Positions 48,380 to 56,935 of a stretch of DNA of 64,000 nt are shown here, in pieces. The notes under the pieces were generated by a model, which saw only the letters and a list, made by a program, of their open reading frames with translations, was not told the DNA's origin and did no database searches. A program made the translations under genes and the position numbers. Each line of letters begins with the position of its first letter. The stretch's first letter is position 1. The DNA comes from an uncultured Pseudomonadales bacterium (GTDB lineage Bacteria > Pseudomonadota > Gammaproteobacteria > Pseudomonadales > Pseudohongiellaceae). Location: contig CALSUH010000005.1 in the NCBI GenBank assembly GCA_943789485.1, positions 434,001 to 498,000 of the forward strand. Direction: 5' to 3'.

Positions 48380-48717
48380 TGTGTGGCCCCCTTCATCGTA
48401 TTCACCCTGATGCACTGAACGTTGGCTAGCTAGACTACTCTGGATAGTAGCAACATGATTCTGGTCGTGAAATTCTGCAATCTGCGCATTATTGGAATCT
48501 CACACTATCAGCTTAGAAGGTTAAGTCAATCCAGAGCTAACAGCTGAAATTCAAAAAAAGTGGCTAGCACAGGGCCGAAACGCGCTTATTTGCAACAATT
48601 TGTGCTTTTTTCGAAGTTTATTGAATTTCTTTGGCGTAATTTGTCATGATAACCTGCAAATCAATAATCAAAACAACGACAAGTGACCACAAAGATCATA
48701 AGAGAGGCTTAACCATC

Positions 48718-49839
48718 ATGTTTAAACTGAACCAGCTAGCCGTATTGGCGCTAGCATTTTCCGTATCTAGCTCTGCATTTTCCCAGCAAGGCAATGCCCG
48801 CGGGCCTATTGGCGAGAGTCCCTATAACGTCGTCTCCTTATGGGCCGACCCCTTTGCCGAAGCAGGTTATGCCTTTGGCGGCAATTCGGGTGTCTTGGCC
48901 GAGTCGGCTGATCGAATCATCATCGCCCAACGCGGTGAAACCGTCTTACCTTACCCACTACCCGATGACTTTCTGGGATTTGCCGGTCATGTAGGCCTTA
49001 ATGTATTAAGAGATACGGCGCGCCGTACCTGGAATAACTGCCTATTCATAGTCAATGCAGACGGCGAGCCTATCGAAGTTTGGGATCATTTGGATTATCT
49101 GTGTGAAGGCTCGGCGGGCCCTGGCCCTCACCGAATTCGAATCAATCCTTACGATCCGGAGAAGCGCATTTGGTTGGTAAATGAAACATTTCACCAAATT
49201 TACGTGATAGCGAACGACGGAAGTGAAGTGCTTGCGACCTACGGCGAGAAAAACGTGTCTGGAACCGACGGCACGCATTTTGGCCGGCCACAGGATATCG
49301 CTTTCATGGAAGATGGCCGTATCCTAATCGCCGATGGATTGGATAATAACCGCATCATGATTATGGATAGTGATATGAACTATCTTGGAGAATTCGGCAG
49401 CGAAGGAGAAGGTCCAGGTCAGACTAAAACGATCCACTCGGTTGCAATTGGGCCTGATGGGCGTGTATTTGTTCTCGATCGTACCGGAAACCGAGTCAAT
49501 CTTTGGCAAGCGACGGACGACCCAGTAGAATTTGAATTTATAAGATCGATTGGTCAGCTTACCTTGCCTTTGGATATCATCGTCAATGAAGATGATTTCT
49601 GGATTACAGACTTAGGTCCACTTCGCTTTGTAAATTTTGATTTCGAAGGAAACCTAAAATATACCTGGCTAGTGCCGTTGGCATTGCCTGATGGCTATAT
49701 CGAAGTGCATTCTTTCAGTGTAGATCCTGCTGGCAATTTGTACGGTGGCGACAACCAATATGGTCGCACGCAAAAGTTTGTACCGAAACCCGGTGCTGAT
49801 CCAGACTTGCTAATCAGTCCTGCTTGGAATGCGCTTTGA
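48718..49839 (+). CDS. Exported NHL-repeat/peptidyl-amidoglycolate-lyase-like propeller
   Basis: The 373-residue protein has a signal peptide (MFKLNQLAVLALAFSVSS, ending FSQQ). The propeller blades read GPHRIRINPYDPEKRIWLVNETFHQIYVI, then FGRPQDIAFMEDGRILIADGLDNNRIMI and HSVAIGPDGRVFVLDRTGNRVNLW. This arrangement matches NHL proteins related to the lyase domain of peptidylglycine amidating enzyme; bacterial relatives have no proven role. The ATG at 48718 is preferred over one at 48646, since the signal peptide starts there and GAGAGG lies nearby. It is preceded by a 240-base gap and followed by a strong terminator. Confidence 0.78.
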   Translation: MFKLNQLAVLALAFSVSSSAFSQQGNARGPIGESPYNVVSLWADPFAEAGYAFGGNSGVLAESADRIIIAQRGETVLPYPLPDDFLGFAGHVGLNVLRDTARRTWNNCLFIVNADGEPIEVWDHLDYLCEGSAGPGPHRIRINPYDPEKRIWLVNETFHQIYVIANDGSEVLATYGEKNVSGTDGTHFGRPQDIAFMEDGRILIADGLDNNRIMIMDSDMNYLGEFGSEGEGPGQTKTIHSVAIGPDGRVFVLDRTGNRVNLWQATDDPVEFEFIRSIGQLTLPLDIIVNEDDFWITDLGPLRFVNFDFEGNLKYTWLVPLALPDGYIEVHSFSVDPAGNLYGGDNQYGRTQKFVPKPGADPDLLISPAWNAL

Positions 49840-49867: not shown

Positions 49868-49903
49868 AAAAAAGCCGACCAAGGAAACTTGGTCGGCTTT
49901 TTT
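49868..49903. terminator. Strong bidirectional terminator with GAAA tetraloop
   Basis: A perfect 16-base-pair stem (49868-49883 with 49888-49903) is capped by GAAA and flanked by A- and T-runs. It ends the propeller gene on the left and, from the other side, the redoxin gene ending at 49935. Confidence 0.95.
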
Positions 49904-49934: not shown

Positions 49935-51071
49935 TTAGTTGTTTTCGATTTCTAGCGGTGCGTAATAAGCGCCACCTGCACCTTCTATTTGTTCGCGCCT
50001 AGCACGCCACTCGGGTCCAGCAGAGCCACCTTCTTCATACTGTAAATCCTGCCGCAGGTAGTTCCAGCTAGTTGGATCTAGTTCCTGCGCCATGGTCCAG
50101 TATTGTTCTGCTTTCTCATCGTTGTCATTGGTAAAGTAATATCCACCCAGGCGGAAAGCAGGCTGTGCACGCTCGGCTTCGGGTGTGCGTTGAATGATGC
50201 TTTCCCGCACCTTACTTCTATCCCAGACGTATTCGCTGTCGGCTCCCTTTGCGACCCAGTCACGAACAATGGGCACGTAGTCGTTGGTACCCCATGCGCC
50301 GTTCATATGCTCCTTCGCATAGGTGCCTTCATTGATGCGCATTATCGATCCTTGTTCATCAATCCATACACCTGAGGGGACATTGACTAAATTGTAAAGC
50401 GAGCTTATCTGATGATTCACATCAATAATCGCTGTGTAGCTAACATTGGCATCGTCAAAGATGTATCCAGCAGCTTCCTCGCCACCAGTATCTTGCGCGA
50501 CAGAAATAATTTCAAAATTTTCAGACTTAAGTTCTTCGTATATGGACTGCCACACGGGCACGTCTAGACGACATCCTCACCACGAGGCCCAAGTAAGGAG
50601 TAATACCTTTTTGCCTCGAAAATCTGAAAGGCGAACTAGTTCGCCATCGCGACCCATCAATTCGAAATCGGGTGCTTCGCCACCGCGTAGGAAAGACTGA
50701 CGCGTTACTGGCATAGTGCCAAAACTCCAGATGCCGTCATTGTAATCGGTGACATAAGCTTGCTGTAGTTTGTCTGCCAGTTCGGTAACGTTGAACCATG
50801 CTTGGCCGCGACGAGTAATAAACATGGCACTGTCTCGATCTTGAAGAACCGGAACACACAACTCATCCAGGCAAGCCCCTTCAGGCTTAAGAACAAAATC
50901 GTTAACTCGGGTAAGATCTTCGGGCTTAACCCAAAGGTCGGTAGCGTCTGGTAGTGTTTGCTCCAACTCTACGACCCGCTCGTTGTAGAGCACAGTAGCG
51001 CTCTGGGCGTTGAGTGCGCCGCTTATAAGCATGACGGCTGTGATGCCGGCTATGCTTCTTAGATTCGTCAT
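49935..51071 (-). CDS. Exported redoxin with in-frame UGA, probable selenoprotein (UGC motif)
   Basis: The 378-residue product (Sec counted) has a signal peptide (1-24), an N-terminal domain with C67-x4-C72, and a thioredoxin-fold redoxin domain: RGGEAPDFELMGRDGELVRLSDFRGKKVLLLTWASW, then TGA (50577-50579), then GCRLDVPVWQ. The TGA is codon 165, in frame with both sides. Reading it as selenocysteine gives SW-U-G-C-R, where relatives that I recall have SWCGCR. The downstream 213 codons remain in frame and redoxin-like (FEIISVAQDTGGEEAAGY, then VNVPSGVWIDEQGSIMRI), followed by a helical C-terminal tail. The ATG at 51071 follows AAGGAG. A pseudogene is the alternative, but nothing else is damaged. 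Likely a periplasmic thiol/selenol oxidoreductase. Confidence 0.75.
50545..50564 (-). promoter_or_regulatory. Candidate bacterial SECIS element downstream of the UGA
   Basis: On the mRNA, GAC, a bulged G and UGCC form the 5' side; CGUGU is the loop; GGCA and GUC are the 3' side. All seven pairs are canonical. The helix begins 12 nt after the UGA and the loop begins 20 nt after it. A G lies within the first two loop bases and a single nucleotide is bulged, as in known bacterial SECIS hairpins. It lies inside the coding sequence, as such elements do in bacteria. Confidence 0.55.
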
Positions 51072-51324
51072 GGTGTTCTCCTTAATCAGGGCGGAATTCG
51101 CCCTTGAACGACTGATTTGGCCACCAATAGTTGGCAGCGGCTTCAATATAACAGCTGGCTTGGGCTGAGGGTATTGCAATCTATGCCCGAAGAGGAATTG
51201 GGAGATTGAAAAGTCATGGGATTCTGGCACTATTTACCGATCGGTCAAATCGTGAGGCAGTCGCAGTATTGGTAGATCTACTCTAAATAGAGGGGCTGAC
51301 CGAGCCGCTTAACAAGGAAAAAAA

Positions 51325-52266
51325 ATGAAAAAACAAGCGAAGTCAATTGTAGTAGCTAGTCTCGCACTTGCACTACTAATTAGCTCGACAGGGGCAACAG
51401 GGCAAGAAGCCGATACGCGCTTGAATAAAGCGATAGCCTTGCTGGAGAACGATGAGCCGGCGTTCGGCCTCTTATCTTTCGACTATTCACTCAACAATGC
51501 TCGATCTCTCTCCAGATCGGGCTTGGATTTCATTATCATCGATATGGAGCACGCGCCTTTCGATGTTGAGCGGATTCGAGAATTCTTGCTTGGTATGACC
51601 GATAAGCGCGCAATCCTTGAGAACGGCAGCTTGCAGCCGGATGTAGTGCCATTCGTACGTATCCCAGCAAGCGGCGGTGAGGATGTATTGTCACAAGTGA
51701 AGCAGGTATTGGATGTGGGCGCGTTCGGCGTCATGTTTCCCTCTGTTAACAATGCCGCCGAGGCCGAGATGGCGATTCGGGCGAGCAGGTATCCACAACT
51801 TAATGGCGCAGGTGACTATGAGCCTGCGGGCCTGCGTGGACGCAACCCATCGAATGCAGTCTGGTATTGGGGGACAAGGGACTACATTGCGAAGGCAGAT
51901 CTGTGGCCCCTAGACCCTAATGGTGAGTTGCTTGCCATTATTCAGATCGAAACGTCGGAGGGGGTTGAAAACATCGAGGAAATTATTTCCGTCCCGGGCA
52001 CCGGCGTCATCTTCATCGGGCCATCTGATCTAAGCGCGGCGATGGGTTATGCCAGCGCAGCGGCACCTCAGGTCGAGGCCGCAATTCAGACTGTTCTTAG
52101 CAGCTGCTTAGCTCACGACGTCCCCTGCGCTATAACGACAAACTCACGCACTGTCGAGGCGCGGCTAGCACAGGGTTTTCGATTTGTTACCGTCGGGCTA
52201 GATGGAGGACTATCGACCGGCGCCCAGGATGCGCTCAACAGCGGGCGCAATGCGAGTGGTCGTTAG
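51325..52266 (+). CDS. Exported HpcH/HpaI-type (class II) aldolase
   Basis: The 313-residue protein has the HpcH/HpaI aldolase fold: DFIIIDMEHAPFDVERI, then VVPFVRIPASGGEDVLSQVKQVLDVGAFGVMFP, then AIIQIETSEGVENIEEI and GVIFIGPSDLSAAMGY. The metal-binding Glu and Asp are in the latter two blocks. In relatives the enzyme cleaves 4-hydroxy-2-oxo acids to pyruvate and an aldehyde in the cytosol. Here a signal peptide (MKKQAKSIVVASLALALLIS, then GATGQ) precedes it, which is unusual and suggests a periplasmic role. Strong AAGGAAAA ribosome site upstream. The redoxin gene diverges from it 253 bases away. Confidence 0.85.
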   Translation: MKKQAKSIVVASLALALLISSTGATGQEADTRLNKAIALLENDEPAFGLLSFDYSLNNARSLSRSGLDFIIIDMEHAPFDVERIREFLLGMTDKRAILENGSLQPDVVPFVRIPASGGEDVLSQVKQVLDVGAFGVMFPSVNNAAEAEMAIRASRYPQLNGAGDYEPAGLRGRNPSNAVWYWGTRDYIAKADLWPLDPNGELLAIIQIETSEGVENIEEIISVPGTGVIFIGPSDLSAAMGYASAAAPQVEAAIQTVLSSCLAHDVPCAITTNSRTVEARLAQGFRFVTVGLDGGLSTGAQDALNSGRNASGR

Positions 52267-55864: not shown

Positions 55865-56935
55865 TTATCCATTAGTAGCCAATACACCCATACGCTGGGC
55901 ACGGCGATCACGTCGCTTCTCATCAAGGGCTGGCCCCAATACCTCTGCATGAAATTTATCGCAACCAATGCACAGGTTACTGTAGTCGTCTCCTTTTGGC
56001 GTCGTGGTTGTAGATTCGGCTATGAATTTTTCCTCATCCCACCCATGGGTTAACCCCATGCGTTCGGGTCTCCCGGCATTAATAGCTTCAATAGCCGGTA
56101 TGCCGGCTAAGTCGTCGAGAATCGCGATAAGAGGCTCTTCGGTAAGGTTGCCTAGTGGATGAGCGGTCTTTATGCAGCAGGGGTAAACATCGCCAGTAGG
56201 GTCGATCGAAACTTCTGAACCGGCGTAGCCATGTTGCAAGAAATTAAGCCCGCCGGACCAGGCATCGCAGAAATTGTCTTCGATCGTTGCTTGAGAAAGG
56301 TCGTTCTCCCAGGCCCGACCGCGAGGCCAAAGCTTGCCGATCCAAGAATCTTCGCTAGCACCAAACATGCTGAAGATCGGGCCCTTTTCTAATGCACGCT
56401 CGTCTTTTTCCCCATCGGCGTGTTTGATGCCTGCATCTTCAAGCATCGCCTTAACTTTTTCTGCGAGGGCGTCCTTTTTATCGCCTTCCATGCCCACATG
56501 AAAATCGTCCATGCCAGATACAGAGATAGACCAGATGTTGCGGCTCAATAACTCATTAATAATTTTTGGCGTCAGCAAGTCACCCGTGGTCTGTACCACC
56601 ACTTTTATTCCACCATTATCTCGGTATTTTTCTTGCAGCGCTTCTAACGCCGGATAAAGGATTCTTTCGCGAACGGGCTCGGTTAGTACGTCACCACCGG
56701 ATAGAATTATTTTTCCTGTCTTCTCGACATAGTCATCAGGCTTTGAAGAGTCGGGATTTGTCTCTCGAAAAGTCATGCGTTCTGGCAGGTTGGCGATTAT
56801 GTTCGGGAAATTCGTCTCTGCCTCAGCGACGACTGCTTCGAGTTCATCCCTGATGTAAGGTCGAAAACGGGACTCATAGCAATGCTTGCAGCGTCGATGG
56901 CAATGCCAACAGAGCACGTAGTAAATTGATTCCAT
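55865..56935 (-). CDS. Radical SAM protein with auxiliary cluster cysteines
   Basis: The 356-residue enzyme has the radical SAM motif CHRRCKHC at residues 12-19 (C-x3-C-x2-C), a glycine-rich SAM loop GKIILSGGDVLTEP and VVQTTGDLL. Its C-terminal part has a SPASM-like arrangement (VSIDPTGDVYPCCIKTAHPLGNL and NLCIGCDKFH), suggesting a second Fe-S cluster. Relatives often modify peptides or cofactors. It starts 161 bases downstream of the lipocalin gene, after a hairpin, and leads into ynjB with 33 bases between, so it probably belongs to the transporter operon. Reaction unknown. Confidence 0.85.
   Translation of the reverse strand: MESIYYVLCWHCHRRCKHCYESRFRPYIRDELEAVVAEAETNFPNIIANLPERMTFRETNPDSSKPDDYVEKTGKIILSGGDVLTEPVRERILYPALEALQEKYRDNGGIKVVVQTTGDLLTPKIINELLSRNIWSISVSGMDDFHVGMEGDKKDALAEKVKAMLEDAGIKHADGEKDERALEKGPIFSMFGASEDSWIGKLWPRGRAWENDLSQATIEDNFCDAWSGGLNFLQHGYAGSEVSIDPTGDVYPCCIKTAHPLGNLTEEPLIAILDDLAGIPAIEAINAGRPERMGLTHGWDEEKFIAESTTTTPKGDDYSNLCIGCDKFHAEVLGPALDEKRRDRRAQRMGVLATNG

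Follow-up and report, generated by a model that had tools for sequence, protein, structure and literature searches.

The locus described here raises a single question: does a TGA codon in the middle of a redoxin gene end the protein, or is it read as selenocysteine (Sec)? The gene lies on the minus strand of a 64,000-nucleotide stretch, hereafter the window, of contig CALSUH010000005.1 (positions 434,001 to 498,000; assembly GCA_943789485.1) from an uncultured Pseudomonadales bacterium of the Pseudohongiellaceae. Standard gene calling splits it into two separate frames. The original prediction, which named no strand, held that two redoxin-like frames in the same phase were separated by one TGA within a W-U-G-C-R motif, with 213 sensible codons behind it and an AAGGAG site and signal-peptide-like start ahead of it; all of this proved correct. 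The minus-strand frame spans 378 codons, its sole interruption is the TGA at codon 165 (50579–50577), 213 sense codons follow, and the surrounding motif reads W-A-S-W-U-G-C-R; the plus strand of the same interval is riddled with stop codons. The Sec reading of the TGA is strongly supported, and the gene very probably uses this codon for Sec, as its relatives do. We are highly confident that it encodes an exported selenoprotein, a predicted ResA/TlpA-type periplasmic oxidoreductase in which UGA codon 165 would be decoded as Sec via SelB and a downstream hairpin.

The gene was found in 16 of 58 relatives (a panel that includes the window's own genome), and a contig scan of genomes added 34 loci; these loci, with some species represented in both sets, reduce to 39 distinct coding sequences. 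Codon 165 is TGA in all 50 loci compared, the window's own copy included. The six peptide patterns that retrieved most of the loci exclude codon 165, and the search was therefore not biased toward TGA. The homologous proteins share 37–97% identity with the window's copy, and their genes carry a single TGA and are otherwise free of nonsense damage, in agreement with the absence of decay originally argued for; an extra TAA listed for G018 lies directly after the last codon and is the gene's own end. Because the TGA recurs in independent genomes, a sequencing error of one assembly is excluded. Family and alignment-model searches recovered six more distant homologues that also bear the TGA (L068, L069, L070, L072, L074, and L076), as well as the sole stop-free homologue, L073 from genome G897, which aligns over its full length and has TGC at the Sec codon. 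Sampling for Cys forms covered 369 genomes of the window's own class, 398 of its own phylum, and 297 of the phylum of L065; within the E-value limits set, one Cys form only was returned, from the last of these samples. In G897, for which completeness is not given, no SelB scored over the cut-off (best match 192.1 bits, to the N-terminal half of the model), and SelB was over the cut-off in all six TGA-bearing genomes searched alongside it. Searches of plasmid records returned partial matches only, none reaching 80% query coverage, and the first of these records carries no annotation.

The machinery for Sec insertion is present in the window's genome (3.67 Mb in 32 contigs, 83.8% complete). The original prediction had proposed a search for selA, selB, selC, and selD along with a comparison of codon 165 among relatives and homologues, and all four components were recovered: selB at 382.8 bits (cut-off 242.25), selA at 569.8 bits (cut-off 267.9), selD at 284.4 bits (cut-off 125), and, for selC, the selenocysteine tRNA (tRNA-Sec) at 66.9 bits (gathering score 47). 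One contig holds both selB and tRNA-Sec, approximately 3.4 kb apart. Among 14 control genomes, matches over the cut-off occurred in two for selB, five for tRNA-Sec, one for selA, and two for selD; with five such genomes, the tRNA-Sec model shows the lowest specificity. Across the 58 relatives, SelB was over the cut-off in 34; 14 genomes carry both the gene and selB, two the gene without selB, 20 selB without the gene, and 22 neither (Fisher's test, which ignores kinship, p = 0.0054). Among the 40 genomes at least 90% complete and at most 5% contaminated, selB is present in 11/11 gene-bearing versus 12/29 gene-less genomes (p = 5.8e−4, likewise ignoring kinship). SelB was over the cut-off in all 12 TGA-bearing genomes checked separately, in two sets of six, one of them the set searched alongside G897. 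As a side observation, the selD match (L066; contig C13, 11561–12481) lies inside an open frame of 758 residues, compared with 311 positions in the model; this length suggests a fusion with another domain.

Purifying selection acts on the region downstream of the TGA. The ratio of nonsynonymous to synonymous substitution rates (dN/dS) against the window's copy was unsaturated downstream in 11 of 17 pairs and ranged from 0.022 to 0.211, with ten of these values at or below 0.086; the 11 unsaturated values upstream ranged from 0.028 to 0.250. An untranslated frame would not stay so conserved.

Constraint behind the TGA is also visible at the RNA level. Synonymous constraint, measured in seven-codon windows as the excess of codon identity over the expectation from codon usage, is maximal at codons 168–174, and each of the nine highest-scoring windows, out of 324, begins within codons 165–173. 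The best of these windows, computed from 39 rows, scores 0.438 (mean 0.083, standard deviation [SD] 0.067), and the best of 306 windows from 21 diverse rows scores 0.368 (mean 0.044, SD 0.059), such that the peak stands about 5 SD above the window mean of the gene in both row sets. The constrained stretch, GACGTGCCCGTGTGGCA, can fold as UGCC-CGUGU-GGCA. Its loop is CGTGT in 37 of the 39 distinct sequences, with AGTTT in L060 and GGTCT in L065; among the six distant TGA forms it is CGTGT in four and GGTCT in two, and in the Cys form it is CGCCT. The four apical pairs are retained across 28 distinct rows, three of them invariant; pairing in the lower stem depends on the lineage. Residue 173, from whose codon the GU of the loop derives, is always Val in the 28-row alignment of Sec forms; the Cys form L073 has Ala there, and its loop loses this GU. 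Published criteria for the bacterial selenocysteine insertion sequence (bSECIS) specify a loop of 3–9 nt with G within the first two places, a stem of 4–16 bp, a spacing of 16–37 nt, and an energy of at most −7.5 kcal/mol (PMC13188914); the loop CGUGU, a stem of 4 bp with 3 more bp beyond a bulge, and a spacing of 20 nt fall within these ranges. The predicted energy is −10.2 kcal/mol for the hairpin enforced in a 45-mer of the window's sequence but −6.8 kcal/mol for the hairpin by itself. The free information of the hairpin resides in the third bases of codons 170–173; of 20,000 recodings that preserve the protein, only 561 retained a CGTGN loop and a stem of 4 bp or more. With both strands of the window counted, a CGTGN loop closed by 4 bp or more follows five of 2152 TGA triplets when spacings of 16–37 nt are allowed; at 20–21 nt, it follows the TGA of this gene only (1/2152).

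The same genome yielded 19 AhpC-TSA matches, six of which, including the window's gene, are interrupted by one TGA and by no other stop codon. The genome thus carries at least five more redoxin frames with a single in-frame TGA. These AhpC/TSA-type frames (L080, L081, L082, L084, and L092) lie on contigs C1, C6, C5, C1, and C6, respectively; four have the motif W-U-P-[YP]-C, and L080 has TGGU. In L080, L081, and L082, a CGTGN loop on a stem of 6–7 bp stands 20 or 21 nt behind the TGA. It is possible, though on balance doubtful, that the window's gene belongs to a distinct subfamily of exported proteins, almost always with Sec, in which the SECIS is a fixed device: a short-stem CGUGN pentaloop 20–21 nt behind the UGA that recurs in several of this bacterium's redoxin selenoproteins, unrelated in appearance, and hence matches its SelB. 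If this were so, the RNA would also shape the protein, as at Val173. The shared CGUGN hairpin itself provides a rule, open to test, by which further selenoproteins of the lineage can be sought and target recognition by SelB can be studied.

Several observations weigh against selenocysteine insertion at this codon or against the part ascribed to the hairpin. The evidence for selenium is indirect. The window's genome is incomplete, its tRNA-Sec match comes from the model that also scored in 5 of the 14 controls, selB was not seen in 2 of the 16 gene-bearing relatives (G018, 85% complete, and G031, 73%), and the co-occurrence test takes no account of shared descent. The CGTGN arrangement is missing from L084 and L092, two of the genome's five further TGA redoxin genes, and the pattern was itself set after the family had been seen. 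The unconstrained lowest-energy fold of the window's own 45-mer differs from the hairpin (−11.9 versus −10.2 kcal/mol enforced), the isolated hairpin at −6.8 kcal/mol misses the published −7.5 limit, and the enforced hairpin reaches just −3.7 and −4.8 kcal/mol in L063 and L031. Protein residues P172, W174, and Q175 determine a large share of the stem. Covariation among the 28 distinct rows was not above that of shuffles for either of the two lower-stem versions counted, and failed as proof of the hairpin. Without its energy term, the general bSECIS rule fits 1277 of 2147 TGA triplets in the window, and it was dropped as evidence. Rfam returned nothing at gathering level on the window, and its only two matches on 50450–50700 were weak, with E 0.3 and 0.9 and scores well below gathering level.

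The kind of protein encoded is known. The best NCBIfam match is NF041054, "ResA-like WAxxUGC motif-containing protein" (WAxxUGC_long; E 2.6e−74), which shares the motif (WASWUGC in the window), the place of the Sec, and the domain order over most of the model; however, the window's protein scores 250.7 bits, below the equivalog cut-off of 300. Of eight relatives compared with NF041054, seven also fall under the cut-off (222.6–253.9), and L065 alone passes (307.5). A 46-row tree, which carries a long-branch warning, separates 38 rows including the window's copy from eight including L065 and the Cys form (support 100/100). A signal-peptide-like start, with a hydrophobic N-terminal stretch (peak at least 1.77), is present in 36 of the 38 rows, L063 and L031 being the exceptions. 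Within the eight-row group, L073 (at residue 24) and L076 (at residue 1 of a script-chosen start) reach such hydropathy, and no member has a signal-peptide-like start by eye. Given this distribution, export is predicted for the window's group. The listing of the Global Ocean Sampling survey includes "Prx-like (UGC-containing)" proteins, with 46 selenoproteins and 855 Cys homologues (PMC2398784), and two reviews list a UGC-containing kind (PMC9312934; PMC13188914, in the latter as "UGC-containing TlpA disulfide reductase family protein"). By the survey's description, its proteins share an AhpC-TSA/TlpA-type domain and a UGC motif with Sec at the first position; the window's clade may be among those 46. 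A literature search for "WAxxUGC" found no paper. The claim of a new selenoprotein consequently stands for the gene and for its exported clade, sister to the group of L065, but not for the kind, described since 2008 (PMC2398784) and modeled in NF041054.

Among alternative accounts, the one that survives best concerns function: instead of a thiol-disulfide oxidoreductase, the protein could be a peroxiredoxin whose Sec attacks peroxide. Sequence and structure comparison recovered a thioredoxin-type fold related to ResA, although the structure comparison hardly covers the N- and C-terminal parts. A fold of this type cannot by itself separate the two functions, but the nearest solved sequences and structures are of ResA/TlpA/DsbE type, and the PxxxTxxC arrangement, or more generally PxxxT/SxxC with C or U, occurs in none of the 46 rows, making a peroxiredoxin unlikely. 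Termination at the TGA with a second start behind it, for example at GTG 50561, would give two proteins, the latter a C-terminal protein of 208 residues. An open reading frame with a GTG start is indeed listed at 50561–49935, and since a Sec codon ordinarily causes some termination, a short 164-residue form may exist; yet the split would fall within the thioredoxin fold and part the two elements, a strand and a helix, that bear the active site, and the codon is kept as TGA throughout, never TAA or TAG, with an unbroken TGC-containing frame in the sole TGA-free homologue. We consider a two-protein arrangement very improbable. The same holds, to our minds, for decoding of the TGA as Trp or Cys or by plain readthrough: the inserted residue is not deducible from sequence alone, but TGA terminates other genes, such as the neighbor at 48646–49839 and the homologues L046, L047, and L053, the codon matches the position of the first active-site Cys in ResA-type proteins, the Sec machinery is present, and selB and the gene tend to occur together. 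Finally, a lone in-frame stop that divides gene calls in two is the textbook sign of a decaying pseudogene or an erroneous base, but with TGA at every locus, an intact reading behind it, and both low dN/dS and synonymous constraint there, a nonsense mutation or error is a practically negligible prospect. Pseudogene, sequencing error, split genes, and other TGA decoding were all rejected on the homologue comparison.

For a gene that uses its TGA for Sec, the following course is proposed. The ribosome would reach the UGA at codon 165, where the hairpin directly downstream (loop CGUGU, 20 nt) would recruit SelB with Sec-tRNA-Sec, and Sec would be inserted in place of termination. The product would be a periplasmic thioredoxin-fold oxidoreductase of ResA/TlpA type, flanked by a beta-rich CX4C N-domain and a helical C-region. 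It would differ from ResA, TlpA, and DsbE (CcmG) in having Sec for Cys, in its UGC motif, one residue shorter than their CXXC, and in its additional N- and C-terminal parts. This motif leads us to expect cycling via a Sec165–Cys167 selenenylsulfide, in which Sec165 would attack as a selenol and Cys167 would resolve as a thiol; a CXC-type motif is redox-active in another family, BrxA/BrxB, which has CGC (PMC8945050). Electrons would be exchanged with periplasmic protein thiols by thiol-disulfide exchange, and as a guess, the CX4C pair, invariant in one alignment and present in 46/46 rows of another comparison, might pass them on. Marine gammaproteobacteria of this group thus probably export a Sec-dependent ResA-like redoxin, and as standard calling yields two frames, genes of this type are easily missed.

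Features of the selenoprotein gene and their positions in the window
Feature	Coordinates	Strand	Basis or remark
Whole coding sequence, 378 residues, predicted Sec at 165	49935..51071	minus	ATG 51071, TAA 49937–49935; 39 distinct homologous coding sequences
AAGGAG ribosome-binding-like site upstream of ATG	51078..51083	minus	Read directly in the sequence
Signal-peptide-like start MTNLRSIAGITAVMLISGALNAQSA, residues 1–22	51006..51071	minus	Cleavage site guessed by eye
CX4C motif (C67, C72), N-terminal beta-rich domain	50856..50873	minus	Alignment
ResA/TlpA-type thioredoxin-fold domain, approximately residues 128–278	50238..50690	minus	Pfam AhpC-TSA and Redoxin; 3kcm, ResA; structure matches
In-frame TGA, codon 165, predicted to be read as Sec	50577..50579	minus	Corresponds in alignment to the first Cys of the ResA-type active site
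Cys167 codon, second residue of UGC redox motif	50571..50573	minus	Sequence and alignment
Strongest synonymous-site constraint in gene, codons 168–176	50544..50570	minus	Highest among 324 windows with 39 rows and among 306 windows with 21 diverse rows
Predicted SECIS hairpin GACGUGCC-CGUGU-GGCAGUC	50545..50564	minus	Loop 50552–50556, 20 nt downstream of TGA; lower stem weak
C-terminal helical region, approximately residues 285–364	49980..50219	minus	Predicted structure and selection; under selection though behind the TGA

Purine stretches like AAGGAG precede the starts of most relatives, and the hydropathy peak of the window's protein is 2.59 at residue 7. The gene is flanked by a convergent gene (48646–49839) and a divergent one (51325–52266); neighbor order is retained in nearer relatives only, and no conserved operon was found. 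Between the two convergent genes, at 49871–49903, lies an inverted repeat, AAGCCGACCAAG-GAAA-CTTGGTCGGCTT, with runs of A and T at its sides, which by eye looks like a terminator for both. Farther along the window, a minus-strand frame at 55865–56935 starts with MESIYYVLCWHCHRRCKHCYESRF and carries a CxxxCxxC-like cluster, which we take to be reminiscent of radical-SAM proteins.
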